A DNA stretch of 64,000 nt from Bacillota bacterium (GCA_030691505.1 JAUYEG010000063.1:1-64000), one strand, 5' to 3'. Positions 21,926 through 33,891 are shown, counted from the stretch's first letter. Notes: generated by a model not told the origin, from the sequence alone. Translations and numbers: made by a program.

Positions 21926-23389
21926 CTACCCGTCCTTGCGCCAGCGCAGGTTGGGCTTGCGGTTGGCCGTGATCTCGTCCAGCCTGCCGACCGGCGTGGT
22001 ATGCGGGGAGTCCTTGACCTTGTCCGGCTCCTCGGCGGTCTCGCGGTCGATCTCCTTAAGCACTCTGATATAGCGGTCCAGCGTTTCTTTGCTTTCCGTC
22101 TCCGTCGGCTCGATCATCATGGCCTCGTCGACGATCAGCGGGAAGTAGTTGGTCGGCGGGTGCATGCCGAAGTCCAGCGTCCGCTTGCTGATATCGAGAG
22201 TCCGCACTCCGGAGCGGTTTTTTTGCCAGTTGCCGGACAGCACGAATTCGTGCTTGCAGTACCGGTCGTACGGCAACAGGTAGTGCTTCTTGAGCTCCGC
22301 CATCAGGTAGTTGGCGTTGAGGACCGCGTCCTCCGTAACCCGCTTGAGCCCCGCGGCGCCCATTTCGCGGATGTAGGTGTAGGCCTTGATGGCCACGCCC
22401 ACATTTCCGTACAGGCTGCGGACCTTGCCGATGCTCTGCGGGCGGTTGTAGTCGAGGAAGTACCGCTGGCCGTCAAACTCGACCGTTGGAACAGGCAGGA
22501 ACGCGGCCAGGCGCTCCTTGACGCCGACGGGCCCGGATCCCGGCCCGCCGCCGCCATGCGGCGTGGCGAACGTCTTGTGTAGGTTAAAGTGCATGACGTC
22601 AAACCCCATGTCGCCCGGGCGGGTCCAGCCGAGCGTGCCGTTGGCGTTGGCCCCGTCGTAGTACAGGAGCCCCCCCGCCTGATGGACCATCCTGGCGATG
22701 ATATGGATGTTCTCGTCCGCCAGTCCCAGCGTGTTGGGGTTTGTCAGCATCAGCGCGGCCACGTTGTGGTCAAGCTCCGCCCGCAGGGCGTCGAGGTCCA
22801 CGCCGCCCCGGGCGTCCGACTTGACCTCGACCATGACGCAGCCGTTCATCACGGCGGTGGCCGGGTTGGTGCCGTGGCCGGAGTCGGGAATGATGACCTT
22901 GTTGCGGTGCCCCTGGCCCATGGAGACCAGGTAGGCGCGAATAATCGACAGGCCGGCAAACTCGCCGTGCGCACCCGCCGCGGGCTGGAGCGTGAAGCGA
23001 TCCATGCCCCCAATCTCGCACAGGTCGCGTTGCAGGTCGTACATCAACTTGAGCAGGCCCTGCACGGCCTCCTGCGGTGTGTACGGGTGCACATGGGCAA
23101 ATCCGGGGAGATTGGCCATGTCCTCGTTGATCTTCGGGTTGTACTTCATGGTGCACGAACCAAGCGGGTAGAAGTCAACGTCCACGCCATGGTTGAGATG
23201 TGACAACCGTACGAAGTGGCGGACGACGTCGACCTCGGACACCTCCGGCAGTTCCGGGGGCGCCTCGCGGACCGCGCCCGGGGGCAGCAGCGCCGAGAGA
23301 TCCTTGGACGGCACGTCGAGCTCCGGCAGGGAGTACGCCGTGCGCCCGGGGGCCGAGAGCTCGAAGATCAGCGGTTCGAGGCGGTTCAT
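21926..23389 (-). CDS. gcvPB: Glycine dehydrogenase (decarboxylating) subunit 2
   Basis: PLP-carrying half of the split P-protein, 487 aa. The PLP lysine sits in [20 protein letters not shown]. The N-terminus has [17 protein letters not shown] and the mid-region [14 protein letters not shown]. It decarboxylates glycine and passes the aminomethyl group to lipoyl-GcvH together with GcvPA. ATG 23389 overlaps the gcvPA stop by 4 bp. Length and order are typical for Firmicutes. Confidence 0.97.
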
Positions 23390-24732
23390 CTCGCAATCAC
23401 CTCCAGGGCCGACACGAGTGCGTCGATTTCGGCGCGGGTCCGCCGCTCGGTTACCGCGAACATCGCCAGCCCCTGGTACTCGGGATAAAACGCCCCGACA
23501 TCAAGCGGACCAAGGAACTTGCGCTCGAACAGGGCGCTCTGAAGCTGCGCCGGCGGCACCGGCGTCCGGACCACGAACTCGCTCCAGAACGGCGAGGCGA
23601 ATGCCGGCGAGAAACCGGGAAGCGCCGTGATCCGCTCGTAGGCGTAGTGAGCCTTCTGGATGCATTGCGCGGCAACTTCGCGCAGACCCTGTTTGCCCAT
23701 CACCGACATGTAGACGCATGCCGCCAGCGCGCACAGCGCCTCGTTGGAGCAGATGTTGGAAGTTGCCTTTTCGCGCCGGATGTGCTGTTCGCGCGTCTGC
23801 AGAGTGAGTACGAACGCCCGCTGCCCGCGCGTGTCCACGGTCATGCCGGAAAGGCGTCCGGCCATGCGCCGCTGGTACTTCTCCAGGCAGGCGAAGAACC
23901 CCAGGTACGGTCCGCCGAAACCGAGCGGAAGGCCCAGGGGCTGGCCTTCGCCGCAGACGACATCGGCACCGAACTCCCCCGGCGGCCTGAGCAACGCGAG
24001 GGAGATCGGGTTGGCCACGACCACAAACAGGGCGCCCTTCTCGTGGGCCGCTTTTGCCAGCTCGGCAAGAGGCTCCACAACCCCCAGGAAGTTGGGGTAC
24101 TGCACGATCAGACAGGCGGTCTTGTCGGTAACCAGCGTGGCGGCAGAGGCCGGGTCGGTCGTGCCGTCCGCGAGCAGCGCCGCCTCGTGGAACGTGACCC
24201 CCTGCCCCGCGGTGTAGGTCTTGCAGACCGTCCGCGTCTCGGGATGCACGCCCCGGGAGATGACAACCTGGTTGCGGCGGTTTGTGGCCATGGCCAGCAG
24301 AATCGCCTCGGCTGCCGCCGACGCCCCGTCGTACATGGAGGCGTTGGCGACATCCATCCCCGTCAGCTCGGCGATCATCGTCTGGTATTCATAGATGCTC
24401 TGCAGCGTGCCCTGGCTGACCTCCGGCTGGTAGGGGGTGTAGGCCGTGTAGAACTCGTTGCGCATGATCAGGTGCGGGATGACGGACGGGATGTAGTGGT
24501 CATAGGCCCCGCCGCCGGCAAAACAGGCGTAGTCATTAACGGTGGCGTTGGCCGCGGCCAGCGACCCCAGGTGCGCTCGCAGCTGTGACTCCGCCATCGG
24601 CGCAGGCAGGTTGAGCTCGCGGCCAAGGCGCGTCGGTTCGGCGATGTCGGCAAAGAGCTCGCCGATGTCCTTGGCCCCGATGGCCGCGAGCATGGCCCGG
24701 CGGTCCTGATCGGTGTTGGGAAGGTACCGCAT
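23386..24732 (-). CDS. gcvPA: Glycine dehydrogenase (decarboxylating) subunit 1
   Basis: Non-PLP half of the split P-protein, 448 aa, opening [20 protein letters not shown]. The conserved [35 protein letters not shown] and [20 protein letters not shown] segments are all present. It pairs with GcvPB. Its start lies 1 bp after the gcvH stop, so the operon is tightly coupled. Confidence 0.97.
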
Positions 24733-26481: not shown

Positions 26482-26704
26482 CACCTGAGAGATTGACTCC
26501 AGGGGCCACGGACCCTGGCTGCTTCCCCTTTGGTGCCCCCACCCCACCGGGCAGGCCGGCCGATCGGCCGGGCTGCGGCTGTGGGACGAGGCTCTCTCCA
26601 GAGCTGCGTCGGACGACAGTCCTTGTACCTGAGAGTTTCGCCCCTCTGGCAAGGGGTTTGCTCCTTCGGTCGCCCTCGCGGGCCGTCTCCCGTCGCCGTC
26701 ATCC
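26471..26704 (-). ncRNA. Tandem glycine riboswitch
   Basis: Two glycine aptamers in series upstream of gcvT. Aptamer I (about 26611-26704): closing stem GGATGAC/GTCGTCC, CGAAGGAGCAAAC, then GAAACTCTCAGGTACAAGGAC. Aptamer II (about 26471-26605): ACCAAAGGGGAAGCAG and TCTCTCAGGTGAAAGGACAG. These are the hallmark conserved cores (AAGGRGCAA / CUCUCAGGYAMAAGGACNG). The leader from the predicted start site to gcvT is about 460 nt. It most likely senses glycine for catabolism by the downstream glycine cleavage operon. Confidence 0.93.
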
Positions 26705-27407: not shown

Positions 27408-27654
27408 CCTTCGACACCGTGTCGCGGAAGGTCGCGGGCGGTCTCGCGCGGTTCGCCCGTTTCGACACCGCTGGCCGCACGCCCCGCCAATGTCGAATAA
27501 TGGCAACAATGGTCGAGTGGTTCTCGGCTGATCCGACAGGGAATGTTGGGACGGGCGGCCAATGTCATTTCGCTGTCGCCGCGTACCGCATGCGGTTGCG
27601 GCCATAAACAGTGGAACGGACAGCCGGTGACTCGTCTCGACGGGAGTGTTATCC

Positions 27655-28074
27655 GTGTCAACAATTCTGGTGATTGAAGGAGAGCCTGTTGCCGGGCTTT
27701 TGCGCGAGTTCCTGACGATCAAAGGCTTCACGGTCGTAACCGCCGGCGACCCAGAACGGGCCATCGAGGCCCTCCAGCGAAGGTCGCCGGATGCGGTGGT
27801 CGTCGACCCGTTTCACCTCGGACAAGCCCAGGGCGAGTTCCTTAGGCATATCCGCCTTCGGGCTAACCTCCGGCCGCTGCCCCTCGTGCTACTGAAGTCC
27901 ACCTGGCCGCCTCCCTCTGCCTATCGGGCGGTTGCGTCCGTCGCTTCGGCCGTGTTGCCCCAGCCGCTGCGGCTATCCCGGCTGGCCATCACGCTCGACA
28001 GCTGCCTCGCGGGGGATCAGGGCCACGGCTACGGCGACGGACGGCAGGCGCCCGTGGCCGCCCACCACGGGTAG
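27655..28074 (+). CDS. Orphan response-regulator receiver-like protein
   Basis: GTG 27655 gives 139 aa. Residues 1-115 fold like a CheY receiver: STILVIEGEPVAGLLREFLT at beta1-alpha1 (Glu-Gly-Glu where Asp-Asp is usual), PDAVVVDPF with the potential phospho-Asp, VLLKSTWPP with the conserved Lys and VLPQPLRLSRLAITLD at the end. There is no output domain, only ~20 low-complexity residues after it. No histidine kinase is nearby. It may be a degenerate receiver used for protein contacts. Confidence 0.6.
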   Translation: MSTILVIEGEPVAGLLREFLTIKGFTVVTAGDPERAIEALQRRSPDAVVVDPFHLGQAQGEFLRHIRLRANLRPLPLVLLKSTWPPPSAYRAVASVASAVLPQPLRLSRLAITLDSCLAGDQGHGYGDGRQAPVAAHHG

Positions 28075-28208: not shown

Positions 28209-28856
28209 ATGTCGCAATTGGGCTCTTCGAGGGATTCGGGATTCAGGAACGCCGGACGCGCCGGTGGAGGCAAGGGCAGGCGCCAGGCCGCGCCGGATAT
28301 CAACCTGCGAGATCCGTTCACTCTGACTATCCTGCTGTTGGTGCTGGTCATCGGCTTCGGCGCGGCCTACGCGCTGTGGTTGCGGACATGGCGGCTTGAC
28401 CAGGCCCGCGAGATGGATTGGTACGTAAACTCAAGCACCGTTCGGATCCGGGATTTCATGGCGCGCACCGAGGTATTCTTTCGCGACCGCAACGCCGCGT
28501 CGCTTGCACTCCTGACAGCCAGCGCCAACCGCCTTGAGGGCTGCCTGGTGCAGATTCCCCGGCGCGGGCCGGTCGAGTGGCGGGCCGAGATGGTGGGCCT
28601 GGCCGAGCAGCTTCGCTCGACCTTCGACGCCGAGCTCAGCGCTCGCCTCGCCAGCCCCGCTTCCGCGTTCGCCGCTCTCGCGGACCAGATGCCGGTCCTG
28701 CGCGACCGGATGCGCGAGATCGAGCAGGCCCTGAATACCACAGTCACCCGCGCCGGCAGCACCCCGCAGCGCACAAACTGGACCCCGGAGGTTGAGAGCC
28801 GGCTTCGCAATGCGATCGCGCAGGCCCGCAAAGCGCTCGACGATATTGCCAAATAG
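28209..28856 (+). CDS. Single-pass membrane protein with helical extracytoplasmic domain, unknown function
   Basis: ATG 28209 after GGAAAGG gives 215 aa. A basic, glycine-rich cytoplasmic tail (residues 1-37) precedes one transmembrane helix (about 38-60, FTLTILLLVLVIGFGAAYAL). A long predicted helical region follows, with many Arg/Glu/Ala heptad-like stretches (SSTVRIRDFMARTEVFFRDR, QMPVLRDRMREIEQALNTTV). I recognise no family. TATACT at 28161-28166 could be an extended -10. A strong terminator follows 28 bp after the stop, making it a single-gene unit. Confidence 0.65.
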   Translation: MSQLGSSRDSGFRNAGRAGGGKGRRQAAPDINLRDPFTLTILLLVLVIGFGAAYALWLRTWRLDQAREMDWYVNSSTVRIRDFMARTEVFFRDRNAASLALLTASANRLEGCLVQIPRRGPVEWRAEMVGLAEQLRSTFDAELSARLASPASAFAALADQMPVLRDRMREIEQALNTTVTRAGSTPQRTNWTPEVESRLRNAIAQARKALDDIAK

Positions 28857-28883: not shown

Positions 28884-28920
28884 TGCGTCATCCAGATTTG
28901 TCTGGATGACGCATATTTTT
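28884..28920 (+). terminator. Rho-independent terminator
   Basis: TGCGTCATCCAGA (28884-28896) and TCTGGATGACGCA (28901-28913) form a perfect 13-bp stem with loop TTTG, followed by TATTTTT. It ends the transcript of the gene at 28209-28856. Confidence 0.92.
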
Positions 28921-29197: not shown

Positions 29198-29974
29198 TTG
29201 ATTACAGCAGGCAAGCAGTTCGTCTTCATGTTCTTCGCGTTTATGATCGTCGTGCTGCTCTACAGGATGGACCGCGCGAAGAAAGGCAACCTGCCCTGGA
29301 TTCGTCGCATCGCAGGTCTGCAGGCAATTGACGAAGCGGTGGGTCGAGCCACCGAACTCGGTACGCCGGTCTTCTACGTGCCCGGCCGCACTGAGATCAA
29401 CACCTCCGGCGCCGCCCAGACCATGGCCGGCCTGGAGATTCTCGGCCACGTCGCCGGCCTCACGGCCAAGTACGACACCGAGCTGATCACGGCCATCGCG
29501 GCCCCGAACGTGCAGCCGGTGGCGGAGGAAATCGTTCGTCAGGCCTACGTCGCCGCGGGCAAGGCCGAAGCGCTCAAGCCCGAGATGGTGCAATTCCTCA
29601 GCAACGAGCAGTTCGCGTTCGCCGCGGCGTGCCTCGCCATCATGAATAGGGAACACCCAGGCGCGGCGATCATGGTCGGCGAGTTCCAGGCGGAAACCAT
29701 GATGCTCGTTGAGGCGGCCGCCCAAACGGGCGCAATCACCATCTGCGGGACCAGCCGCGCGATTCAGATTCCGTTCTTTGTCGCGGCGGCGGACTACACG
29801 CTCATCGGCGAGGAGATGTTCGCCGGTGGCGCCTACCTTACCCGGGATCCGAACAAGCTTGGCTCCATCGCCGCCCTCGATGTAGGCAAGGTCCTGGGGA
29901 CTCTGATCATCCTGATCGGCGCGATCACGATGACGGCCGGCAACAAGAGCTTCCTCAACTTCATCAAGAAATAG
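29198..29974 (+). CDS. Membrane protein, DUF6754-like; first gene of an unknown four-gene operon
   Basis: TTG 29198 after AGGGGGTGAACC gives 258 aa. One transmembrane helix lies at each end (about residues 7-23 and 229-249), with a ~200-residue soluble domain between. That domain has alternating helix/strand character: LQAIDEAVGRATELGTPVFY, VPGRTEINTSGAAQTMAGLE, IMVGEFQAETMMLVEAAAQT and GAITICGTSRAIQIPFFVAA. I recall similar proteins as DUF6754, without searching. The function is unknown. It is followed at 21 bp by a polytopic membrane gene. Each of the four genes has its own strong Shine-Dalgarno and a TTG or GTG start. Confidence 0.7.
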   Translation: MITAGKQFVFMFFAFMIVVLLYRMDRAKKGNLPWIRRIAGLQAIDEAVGRATELGTPVFYVPGRTEINTSGAAQTMAGLEILGHVAGLTAKYDTELITAIAAPNVQPVAEEIVRQAYVAAGKAEALKPEMVQFLSNEQFAFAAACLAIMNREHPGAAIMVGEFQAETMMLVEAAAQTGAITICGTSRAIQIPFFVAAADYTLIGEEMFAGGAYLTRDPNKLGSIAALDVGKVLGTLIILIGAITMTAGNKSFLNFIKK

Positions 29975-29995
29975 GCGGCAAAGGAGGTGTCCTGA

Positions 29996-30622
29996 TTGCG
30001 TAAGGAGATACCGCTCGCGATAGCCTTCGTCACCGGGTTCGTGGTCCTGCTGGAGTACTTCTTCCTCCCGGCGGTTCCGGCCAGCAAGGCCTGGGCCACC
30101 ATGCTTCAGCAGTGGGGCATTGTTGTTTCCGGCTTCGCCATGTTCGTCGCGGCCACAAACCTCGTGCTCGTCAACGTCAAGAAGATGGACCCGAAACGCA
30201 ACAAGGAATGGTACAACCCCGTCTTGCTTTTGGTCTTTATGTTCGGAATGGCTTTCATCGGCCTGTTCGTCGGCGAACGCACCGCCACGTACCAGTTCCT
30301 TTTCACCAAGATGTATCAGCCTCTCGGAACGGCTATGTTCGCTCTGATGGTGTTCTTCATCGCGTCGGCCGCTCAGCGCGCGTTTCGCGCCAAGAGCGTT
30401 GAGGCCGCCCTGCTGCTCGCCGCAGGCATTATCGTCATGCTGGGCCGTGCACCGGTGGGCGAGCTGGCCGGCAGTTGGCTTCCCAATCTGACCAACTGGA
30501 TCATGAACTTCCCCAATGTGGCCGGTAACCGCGCGATCATGATGGGTGCCGCACTTGGCGCCACAGCGACCGCGTTCAGAGCCCTCGTCGGTATCGACCG
30601 GTCGTACCTCGGCGTCGACTGA
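29996..30622 (+). CDS. Polytopic membrane protein of the unknown four-gene operon
   Basis: TTG 29996 follows GGAGG by eight bases; 208 aa. Six likely transmembrane helices lie at about residues 6-25, 38-60, 75-93, 105-127, 134-150 and 178-195. A short charged loop, NVKKMDPKRNKEW, follows the second. No transporter or enzyme signature was seen. Its position between two single-domain membrane-anchored proteins suggests it is an integral subunit of the same complex (inference). Confidence 0.65.
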   Translation: MRKEIPLAIAFVTGFVVLLEYFFLPAVPASKAWATMLQQWGIVVSGFAMFVAATNLVLVNVKKMDPKRNKEWYNPVLLLVFMFGMAFIGLFVGERTATYQFLFTKMYQPLGTAMFALMVFFIASAAQRAFRAKSVEAALLLAAGIIVMLGRAPVGELAGSWLPNLTNWIMNFPNVAGNRAIMMGAALGATATAFRALVGIDRSYLGVD

Positions 30623-30646
30623 TTTCGAGGAAGGAGGTGCGGTAGA

Positions 30647-31474
30647 GTGGACTTACTTGTCAAGCTTGGTAATATAGACCGGCGCGTGATCTACATTCTC
30701 CTGATCCTGGCCACCCTGGTGCCGTTGGTGAGGCCGATCGGACTTCCGTTCTCGGTCTCTGAGGCGACCAAGAAGTTCTATGCGGCCGTGGAACAGGTGC
30801 CCGCCGGCGAGACCATACTGATGGCGATCGACTACTCGGTCGGCGGCGGACCCGACATTCACCCGCAGGGCCAGGCCGTCTTCCGGCACGCAATGGCAAG
30901 AGGCCTCAAAGTCGTGTTCGTGGCCTTCGTCACCGAGGGCACCGAGTTCGCGAACCAGATCATCGCCGAAGGCGAAAAGATGGCCGGCAAGACCTATGGC
31001 GTGGACTTCGTAAACCTCGGGTACGTGCCGGGCTCGGAGGTGGCTATTTCGGCCTTCGCGCAGGACGTTCTTAAGGTGTACCCCAAAGATGTGCGCGGCA
31101 ACGTTACCGCTGACCTTCCGATCATGCAGGGCATTGCCACTGTGGCCGACTTCGTGCTGGTCACCGAGTTCGCGACCGGCATCCCCGGCCCGTCCGAGTG
31201 GATCAAGCAGGTCGGGACAAGGTACAACGTACCGCTCGCGATCGGGGTCGTGACCGTCATGGGTCCGCAAACCACTCCTTACTACCAGGCCGGTCAGCTC
31301 GTTGGACTGCTTTCCGGGCTCAAGAGCGCGGCCGAGTATGAGGTTGCCATGAAGGCGCCCGGTCTCGCGACAGCGGCAATGGACGCTCAGTCGATTGACC
31401 ACATTGTGATCGTGCTCTTCATCATCCTGGGTAACATCGCCTATTTTGCCGGAAAAGGCAAGAAGGGGAGGTGA
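30647..31474 (+). CDS. Membrane-anchored alpha/beta protein of the unknown four-gene operon
   Basis: GTG 30647 after GGAGGTGCGGTAGA gives 275 aa. It has the same topology as the first gene: a transmembrane helix at about 13-32, a ~200-residue soluble domain, and a helix at about 250-268. The soluble part looks Rossmann-like, with alternating strands and helices: TILMAIDYSVGGGPDIHPQG, GLKVVFVAFVTEGTEFANQI, VDFVNLGYVPGSEVAI and VPLAIGVVTVMGPQTTPYYQ. It could be a distant paralogue of the first gene. No known catalytic motif was identified. Confidence 0.68.
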   Translation: MDLLVKLGNIDRRVIYILLILATLVPLVRPIGLPFSVSEATKKFYAAVEQVPAGETILMAIDYSVGGGPDIHPQGQAVFRHAMARGLKVVFVAFVTEGTEFANQIIAEGEKMAGKTYGVDFVNLGYVPGSEVAISAFAQDVLKVYPKDVRGNVTADLPIMQGIATVADFVLVTEFATGIPGPSEWIKQVGTRYNVPLAIGVVTVMGPQTTPYYQAGQLVGLLSGLKSAAEYEVAMKAPGLATAAMDAQSIDHIVIVLFIILGNIAYFAGKGKKGR

Positions 31475-31480
31475 TCGGCC

Positions 31481-32080
31481 GTGACAAGTGACATCGGCAT
31501 CTGGGTAGCAGCGATTTGCACCCTGGCGATGTTTTCCTTCCTGTGGAAGGAAAACTCGATCTTCAGGTCTTTCCAGCACATCTATGTGGGCATCGCCGCC
31601 GGGTACGGCATGGTGCGGCAATGGCAGGCAATCAACAACATGGCCATCACACCCTTGCTGACCAAGGGCGTCACCACGTGGATTGTCCCGATCATTCTGG
31701 GCGTGCTGCTGTTTGCACGGTTCTTCAAGAGCATCGCGTATCTGTCCCGCTGGTCGGTGGCCTTCCTGATCGGTATTGGCGGTGCGCTCTCGATCAAGAT
31801 CCTGGAGACCGAGTTCATCCGCCAGGCCCAGGCCACGTTCGTCCCGATGAACAGCTTCAACAACATCGTCCTGGTGCTGGGCACCGTGGCCGGCCTGTGC
31901 TACTTCTACTTCACTATCAAGCCCTCGACAGCCCTCCTCGGCGTTGCCAAGCTCGGCCGGTACGTTCTCATGATCTCGTTCGGCGCCGGCTTCGGAAACG
32001 CGGTCATGGGCCGTGTCTCGCTCCTGATCAGCAGAATGCAGTTCCTTTTCGGCCAGTGGATCTACCTGATCAAGATGTAG
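31481..32080 (+). CDS. Polytopic membrane protein, last gene of the unknown operon
   Basis: GTG 31481 follows GGGGAGGTGATCGGCC; 199 aa. About six hydrophobic segments (residues roughly 5-21, 30-46, 63-80, 86-102, 121-142, 150-175). Its N-terminus (TSDIGIWVAAICTLAMFSFL) is not a cleaved signal. It pairs with the second gene as a presumptive second membrane subunit. It begins 6 bp after the third gene. No family recognised. Confidence 0.65.
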   Translation: MTSDIGIWVAAICTLAMFSFLWKENSIFRSFQHIYVGIAAGYGMVRQWQAINNMAITPLLTKGVTTWIVPIILGVLLFARFFKSIAYLSRWSVAFLIGIGGALSIKILETEFIRQAQATFVPMNSFNNIVLVLGTVAGLCYFYFTIKPSTALLGVAKLGRYVLMISFGAGFGNAVMGRVSLLISRMQFLFGQWIYLIKM

Positions 32081-32108: not shown

Positions 32109-32134
32109 CCGGGGGCCCCGCAGGGGGCCCCCGG
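32109..32134. terminator. Strong GC hairpin between convergent genes
   Basis: CCGGGGGCCC (32109-32118) and GGGCCCCCGG (32125-32134) are perfect complements with a 6-nt loop. It lies between the end of the four-gene operon (32080) and the convergent coat gene (stop 32172). It lacks a T-tract but probably serves both strands. Confidence 0.7.
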
Positions 32135-32691: not shown

Positions 32692-33891
32692 CTACCCTCT
32701 CACCACAAATTCCTCCTTCATGGCCCGGACCAGATCGGGAGACGTGAGGATACGCAGCGCTGTCAGCGCGAGCGTCTTGGCCCCCAGGACCATCCCATCG
32801 TGGCCGCGCGGGCTGACCGCGCACGCCGCGAACTCGCGGGAGTGCCCGGGCACATACTCGTCGCTGATCGAGATGTAGGGGTGGACCGACGGGACAACCT
32901 GGCTGACGTTGCCCATGTCCGTTGACCCCGACCCGCGCCGGGGCGAAGCCTGCAGCGGCGCCCCGAGCGTTCCCAGCGCGTCCGCGAACGCGCCCGCCAG
33001 AGCCTCGTTGGTGATCATGTTCTGATAAGGGTGCGCGGTCGCCCGCCAGCCCATCTTGGCCCCGGTCGCCTGCGCCGCGCCGCGCGCGCAGTTCTTGACC
33101 TTCTCGACCACCTCTTTGAGGTATCCCGCATCAGCGGCGCGGGCGTACATGCGGATTTCGGCGTACTCCGGCACTATGTTGGGGGATACGCCGCCTTTAG
33201 TGATGATGCCGTGGATACGAACGTCAGGGGTCAGATGCTGGCGCAGGGCATTGACCGCATTAAAGGTGAGCAGTGCGGCGTCCAGGGCGTTGATCCCCTC
33301 GTGCGGGATCGCCGCCGCGTGTGCGGGCTTGCCACGGAAAGTGATCTCGAAGGCCTCCCTGGCCAGAGAGGGCATCGAAAGGATGTTGCCCGTCGATGAG
33401 TGGACCATCATCGCCGCATCCACGCCCTCAAATGCGCCGGCGGAAACCAGCACGACCTTGCCCCCTGCCCCGTCGACCGCGCCCTCCTCCGCTGGCGAGC
33501 CAAAAACCAGCAGCCGCCCGGGCCAGGCATCGCGGCACTGCGCCAGAGCAAGCGCGGCGCCGGTGCTCATCACGCCGTGCAGGTTGTGCCCGCAGGCATG
33601 TCCGATGTCCGGCAGCGCATCGTACTCGGCCAGCAGCGCGACGGTGGGGCCCGGCCCGGAGCCCTGCATCGCCGCACGGAAAGCGGTGGGCATCCCCGCG
33701 TACGGCCTCTGCACTTCGAAACCGGCCTGCTCCAGCACCGACGCGTGCCAGGCCGAGGCCTTCTCCTCTTGAAATCCGAGCTCCGGCGTGTTGCCGATCC
33801 GGTCGCTGAGGGCGACCAGTCCGTCGCGCGCGGCGTCGACGGCGGCGATCAGCCGTGCGGGCGCCGCGCCTTCGGTCTCATTAGCGGTCAA
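32692..33891 (-). CDS. M20-family amidohydrolase / peptidase
   Basis: Zinc-dependent amidohydrolase of the AbgB/HipO-like M20 group, 399 aa. TTG 33891 follows GGAGGT. EYDALPDIGHACGHNLHGVM holds the first metal ligands, FGSPAEEGAVDGAGGKV the catalytic Glu pair, and a dimerisation insert (FRGKPAHAAAIPHEGINALD) is typical. GSGSTDMGNVSQVVPSVHPY and SDEYVPGHSREFA complete the metal site. The substrate is unknown; p-aminobenzoyl-glutamate or N-acyl amino acids are usual for the group. It is divergent from hisH. Confidence 0.88.
   Translation of the reverse strand: MTANETEGAAPARLIAAVDAARDGLVALSDRIGNTPELGFQEEKASAWHASVLEQAGFEVQRPYAGMPTAFRAAMQGSGPGPTVALLAEYDALPDIGHACGHNLHGVMSTGAALALAQCRDAWPGRLLVFGSPAEEGAVDGAGGKVVLVSAGAFEGVDAAMMVHSSTGNILSMPSLAREAFEITFRGKPAHAAAIPHEGINALDAALLTFNAVNALRQHLTPDVRIHGIITKGGVSPNIVPEYAEIRMYARAADAGYLKEVVEKVKNCARGAAQATGAKMGWRATAHPYQNMITNEALAGAFADALGTLGAPLQASPRRGSGSTDMGNVSQVVPSVHPYISISDEYVPGHSREFAACAVSPRGHDGMVLGAKTLALTALRILTSPDLVRAMKEEFVVRG

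Follow-up and report, generated by a model that had tools for sequence, protein, structure and literature searches.

What do four consecutive genes for membrane proteins, packed into less than 3 kb of a Bacillota genome, make together, and is the product a known system? The locus lies in the window, a 64,000-nucleotide stretch of a Bacillota bacterium (GCA_030691505.1, JAUYEG010000063.1:1-64000), and an earlier note had proposed it as a candidate for an undescribed system. The genes, here called P1 to P4, and the hairpins that flank them are as follows.

28884-28913, plus strand: terminator-like hairpin 5' of the operon, 13-bp perfect stem with T-rich tail (hairpin scan)
29198-29974, plus strand: P1, DUF6754 protein of 258 aa, start TTG (ORF; PF20539 match)
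29996-30622, plus strand: P2, 208 aa, start TTG, predicted six-helix membrane protein without family (ORF and topology)
30647-31474, plus strand: P3, 275 aa, start GTG, predicted helix, alpha/beta domain and helix, without family (ORF and topology)
31481-32080, plus strand: P4, 199 aa, start GTG, predicted six- or seven-helix membrane protein without family (ORF and topology)
32109-32134, strand not assigned: GC-rich hairpin 3' of the operon, 11-bp perfect stem without T tract (hairpin scan)

The gene calls of the earlier note stand. The four genes lie on one strand, use TTG or GTG starts, are separated by 21, 24 and 6 bp, and are each preceded by a purine-rich Shine-Dalgarno sequence (aggggg, aaaggagg, gaaggagg and ggggagg before P1, P2, P3 and P4, respectively). 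They are real genes, because about 100 homologous cassettes, among the matches listed, keep the same order. The insulating hairpins fared less evenly. The upstream terminator does have a perfect 13-bp stem and a T-rich tail (the stem is followed by TATTTTTC), but such sites are no commoner than chance, with 3 found by the scan versus 3.3 in shuffles, so the hairpin is distinguished solely by its perfect stem. The downstream hairpin, given as 10 bp, is present with an 11-bp perfect stem and lacks a T tract. On the 5' side of the terminator-like hairpin lie a response-regulator-like receiver ORF (27646-28074, plus strand; PF00072, E 1.6e-5, below cut-off) and a gene for a single-helix protein (28209-28856, plus strand), neither of which is conserved with the cassette.

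The four genes travel as one unit. Scanning representative genomes with a P1 profile gave at least 580 stretches, at least 570 of them confirmed, from at least 80 loci. At least about 100 complete cassettes were extracted from the loci listed and the window's genome, with the order P1-P2-P3-P4 invariant; the few exceptions among the matches listed can apparently be put down to frameshifts, split genes or contig ends, and in the loci listed two or three cassettes often stand in tandem. Carriers among the matches listed include Bacillota, WOR-3, Zixibacteria, Cloacimonadota, Fermentibacterota and others, the loci coming mostly from metagenome-assembled genomes, for which binning errors may lie behind some of the taxon labels (an archaeon, a Puniceispirillum, an Armatimonadetes bin). 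One contig labelled as a Methanomethylicota archaeon, a label that may be such an error, has a gene resembling a carboxylase alpha subunit by eye (oxaloacetate decarboxylase/pyruvate carboxylase type; L047:8243-9646, plus strand) directly 5' of P1-P4.

In one fixed set of 300 genomes of the window's phylum, P1 occurs in 25, P3 and P4 in 24 each, and P2 in 23 plus one borderline partial match, the genomes being the same throughout (P1 versus P3, Fisher p 1e-34). No convincing independent homologue of any of the four families appeared in these 300 genomes, and the cassette is absent from 14 well-known control genomes. The neighbourhood check suggested in the earlier note came out in favour of its proposal: the order is the same in nearly every locus uncut by a contig end, and the separate occurrence of homologues in other contexts, which would have told against it, was not convincingly seen. 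Pairwise identities of P1 to P4 are correlated across cassettes among the matches listed (Spearman 0.69-0.76), the correlation being far weaker among the copies in the window's genome (0.02-0.57). A mobile-element origin was rejected, no relative being found in viral contigs or plasmids.

P1 belongs to DUF6754 over the full domain, as the earlier note had labelled it (PF20539, residues 6-254, E 2.2e-79, 266.7 bits with a gathering cut-off of 27). For P2, P3 and P4 there is no Pfam or NCBIfam family above cut-off, and none of the four proteins matches a solved structure in the PDB by sequence, profiles included. Topology predictions, which are based on hydropathy and charge averages, give P1 and P3 a soluble domain with a single membrane helix at each end, P2 six helices and P4 six or seven, in line with the expectation that genes 2 and 4 encode about six-helix proteins. 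The idea that genes 1 and 3 are alike holds for this common layout but goes no further: the two are without detectable homology, and the membrane is predicted to separate their domains, with that of P1 in the cytoplasm (positive charge flanks the domain side) and that of P3 outside (charged ends inside). P2 is predicted N-in/C-in and P4 N-out, that is, in opposite orientations. Origin as duplicated pairs was rejected for P1/P3 (hhalign probability 2%) and for P2/P4 (profile-comparison probability 10%).

The AlphaFold models of P1 and P3 are confident (pLDDT 93.8 and 95.1), and as modelled the two domains are Rossmann-like alpha/beta folds without a close solved relative; Foldseek returned no real match for either (query TM at most about 0.37, the hits being generically Rossmann-like), and a viral library gave none. 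Median pairwise identity falls from P1 (0.49) through P2 (0.40) and P4 (0.38) to P3 (0.35) over about 100 cassettes among the matches listed. None of Pfam, NCBIfam, PDB sequence, Foldseek and PADLOC revealed a clear likeness to a transporter or enzyme complex already characterised, which the earlier note had raised as grounds for abandoning the idea; the anti-phage defence models of PADLOC match neither P1-P4 nor the partner proteins A, B, D and Q described below. From fixed order and co-occurrence we infer that P1-P4 are four subunits of one inner-membrane complex, comprising the two soluble-domain and two membrane subunits that the earlier note envisaged.

The unit is larger than the four genes first proposed. 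Clustering of neighbours revealed two strong partners, A and B, in 25 of the 80 loci listed. A, of about 620 aa, covers the whole MutL profile PF13941 (E about 1e-120) and keeps the phosphate-1, phosphate-2 and adenosine motifs of ASKHA proteins (ATDcGSTTTK, VDIGGATTD and GSGGvLSHAPRR), so that profile and motifs together place it in PF13941 and the ASKHA superfamily. It falls under the equivalog cut-off of NCBIfam GlmL (NF040745; E 5e-65, 220.1 and 214.2 bits, cut-off 475) and under that of Or-4. B, of about 375 aa, is a barrel-sandwich/KOW protein with weak similarity to RnfC_N, biotinyl-lipoyl and KOW domains, and is 48-60% identical to the reference across phyla. Two small genes accompany A and B: D (90-140 aa) and Q (about 165 aa, two helices), whose products look membrane-associated.

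In four single-copy Bacillota genomes the operon reads D-P1-P2-P3-P4-A-B, while A-B-(P1-P4)n or P1-P4-A-B is found in Zixibacteria, Fermentibacterota, Sumerlaeota, Muiribacteria, Riflebacteria and Symbiobacterium. The window's genome has A and B away from the window, on five contigs, with one A-B pair forming a fusion protein of 1148 aa and, on contig C14, a fusion of Q to an FHA domain (L137:5230-6102, minus strand; PF00498, E 4e-7) beside A and B. B is present in 24 of the 300 Bacillota genomes: 23 have B and P1, two P1 only, one B only and 274 neither (Fisher p 5e-31). The P1-positive genomes without detectable B are G019, which is 78% complete, and G095, whose cassette is strongly diverged (L147:5513-8268, minus strand), lacks a detectable A-B and has one in-frame TGA in the P4 frame. 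The genome with B only, G009, belongs to the same genus as G160, which has the complete operon; it retains a shorter A (469 aa, L148), a state as after loss of the rest of the system.

On another contig of the window's genome (L142, contig C13) a separate GlmL-type gene stands beside one resembling an aminomutase subunit, and probably represents the conventional role of this ATPase family there. In many Bacillota (seven loci) the A-B or P1-P4 locus adjoins tsaE-tsaB-rimI-tsaD, which suggests one ancestral location.

The cassettes are multiple and old. The window's genome holds nine (nine P2 and nine P4 genes), with P1 identities among them of 27-57%; one of the nine adjoins mreB/mreC/PBP2/rodA. 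The closest relatives of the window's cassette, among the matches listed, are in Fermentithermobacillaceae MAGs (three loci; P1 identity 60-64%). A concatenated tree groups each of the three tandem cassettes of one Zixibacteria locus with a cassette from a different genome, and the paralogues are therefore old and have been kept apart. Each B-positive genome, by comparison, has about one top-scoring B (above 460 bits) for its one to nine cassettes, and cassettes to B number 7 to 1 and 6 to 1 in WOR-3, 5 to 1 in Zixibacteria and 2 to 1 in Coatesbacteria, with one WOR-3 genome at 4 to 0. More distant A-B pairs exist, several in the window's genome and others in some other genomes. It is inferred that one A-B module is common to all cassettes of a genome, although the distant pairs leave strict sharing unproven.

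Gene context was also considered as a guide to substrate. By eye, M20, M24 and amidohydrolase genes adjoin many Bacillota cassettes, including that of the window (32695-33891), and a transporter of peptides or amino-acid derivatives was entertained. It was rejected, as neither family tallies nor a flank test gave enrichment: peptidase or amidohydrolase genes lie in 15 of 96 flanks of Bacillota cassettes versus 22 of 178 background windows (p 0.28). Without enrichment over background, no substrate class follows from context. A glycine cleavage operon lies on the minus strand of the window (gcvP-type genes 21929-24732, further genes to 26285), preceded on its 5' side by a glycine riboswitch aptamer (26607-26702, minus strand; RF00504, 56.9 bits); gcvP is about 4.5 kb from P1-P4. 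In Fermentibacterota and a few relatives (ten loci) glycine cleavage genes precede a D-A-B-P1-P4 cluster, after which, by sequence reading, a receptor-like gene and ExbB/ExbD-like genes often stand. A functional link to glycine cleavage was set aside, being absent in most loci.

The best explanation, to which we would give a probability of about 0.4, is a modular membrane complex whose diverged cassettes are served by a common ASKHA ATPase and which most likely acts as a transporter. Counted in its favour are the fixed order, the co-occurrence, the linkage and fusion of A and B, the copy-number asymmetry, the ASKHA motifs, the ancient paralogues, and the placing of the most conserved domain (P1) and the least conserved one (P3) on opposite sides of the membrane. 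In such a transporter P3 would bind or sense a cassette-specific ligand outside and so give each cassette its specificity, and the shared A-B module would dock inside on the cytoplasmic domain of P1, which is strongly conserved. A, on binding or hydrolysing ATP, would then drive a conformational change by which the ligand is moved through P2 and P4, the predicted membrane core. The system would be a primary transporter with an ECF-like modular economy and an ASKHA ATPase in place of an ABC ATPase. Against this reading, ASKHA ATPases are not known to power transporters, the flanking genes point to no substrate class, more distant A-B pairs exist in the window's genome, and two P1-positive genomes have no detectable B. 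The bolder proposal, a new class of primary active transporter in which interchangeable four-subunit units are energised by one ASKHA-fold (hexokinase/actin/Hsp70-type) module rather than by an ABC, P-type or rotary ATPase, is speculative and should be regarded as doubtful.

Alternatively, P1-P4 could be a membrane-bound enzyme complex with P1 (cytoplasm) and P3 (outside) as catalytic or ligand-processing subunits, which A-B would use ATP to reactivate or assemble, much as the ASKHA reactivases do for coenzyme B12 mutases. The nearest named relatives of A, below cut-off, are the GlmL/MutL accessory proteins of B12-dependent mutases; one A-B for many complexes fits a maintenance role; and many polar positions of P1 are invariant (R50, E53, Q138, R151, E166, E172, D199, E205, E206 and D228). 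This alternative is unlikely, however, given that no cofactor motif is conserved, no Cys or His being conserved at 95% in B or D and none invariant in P2 or P4, that the confident P1 model matches no enzyme, and that no conserved enzyme partner stands beside the cassettes of distant phyla in the loci listed.

Another alternative is a machine for envelope biogenesis, secretion or surface organisation, in which A-B would be an actin-like or assembly ATPase inside, and P3 and the P1 extensions would act on the envelope outside. In diderm phyla (Zixibacteria, WOR-3, Fermentibacterota and others) P1 carries an N-terminal signal-peptide-like stretch and a weak fn3-like domain, an extension that agrees with the predicted outside location of its N-terminus; gaps of 400-1200 bp between cassettes, suspected of holding a separate gene, proved to be this extension of P1 itself. 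In a goat rumen bacterium (L060:8282-10702, plus strand) the extension is large and PQQ-propeller-like (PF13360, E 6e-5). The receptor-like and ExbB/ExbD-like genes of Fermentibacterota, the PorV/PorQ-like genes near cassettes in several loci (by sequence reading), the cassette beside mreB/mreC/PBP2/rodA, the membrane-associated look of D and Q, and the Q-FHA fusion point the same way. These contexts are lineage-specific, though, and their association with the cassettes is putative; cassettes occur also in monoderm Bacillota without P1 extensions. An envelope machine is a rather poor prospect.

Improbable, too, is a transmembrane signalling complex in which P3 senses outside, P1 signals inside and A-B reads the state. 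Predicted domains on both sides of the membrane, the many diverged copies, the FHA-Q fusion and the response-regulator-like ORF 5' of the window's operon are consistent with signalling, but two polytopic subunits exceed the needs of a sensor, the conserved set includes no kinase, cyclase or output domain, and no regulator is a conserved neighbour in the loci listed. Membership in the Rnf/Nqr-like ion-translocating redox complexes, hinted at by weak RnfC_N and NQRA_N matches in B (best E 7e-7) and by a six-helix pair, P2 and P4, in predicted opposite orientations, was rejected and is largely refuted, as B, P2 and P4 lack conserved cysteines for iron-sulphur clusters and P1-P4 have no detectable similarity to any Rnf or Nqr subunit (Pfam, PDB).

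Whichever reading prevails, many phyla of uncultured bacteria carry a fixed multi-gene membrane system for which no function has been described; a genome may hold as many as nine ancient copies, and of the four core proteins three belong to no family. An ASKHA-run transporter would be a new way of powering transport; whatever the function, the system explains dozens of hypothetical membrane proteins per genome in the carrier groups and offers a defined, testable gene set. The candidacy of the locus as an undescribed system has held up, with no family for P2-P4 and no characterised relative found.

How does the system compare with those already known? Its one named core family, DUF6754 (PF20539), has P1 as a full-length member and is itself without assigned function; no paper naming either DUF6754 or PF20539 was found in a literature search covering papers outside subscription. 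The A-B pair appears to be undescribed. P1-P4 fail membership in every transporter and redox complex tested, and, on that literature, P1-P4 with A-B are rated a new kind of system. With Rnf and Nqr they share paired six-helix subunits and the weak barrel-sandwich similarity of B to RnfC_N/NqrA_N, and differ in lacking Fe-S and flavin motifs as well as homologous subunits. With MutL/GlmL (PF13941, NF040745), accessory to B12-dependent glutamate and ornithine mutases, the likeness lies in A, which matches the whole profile and the ATPase motifs; A differs in its length (about 620 versus about 460 aa), in scoring under the GlmL and Or-4 cut-offs, and in being partnered by B and P1-P4 rather than by a mutase. 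ECF transporters (group II) have no sequence similarity to the system and use an ABC ATPase, of which the conserved set here contains none, the linked ATPase being ASKHA-type and the cassettes four-subunit; the putative likeness, by analogy only, is that of one conserved ATPase module per genome, here the one with the top-scoring B alongside more distant A-B pairs, which would energise many membrane units.
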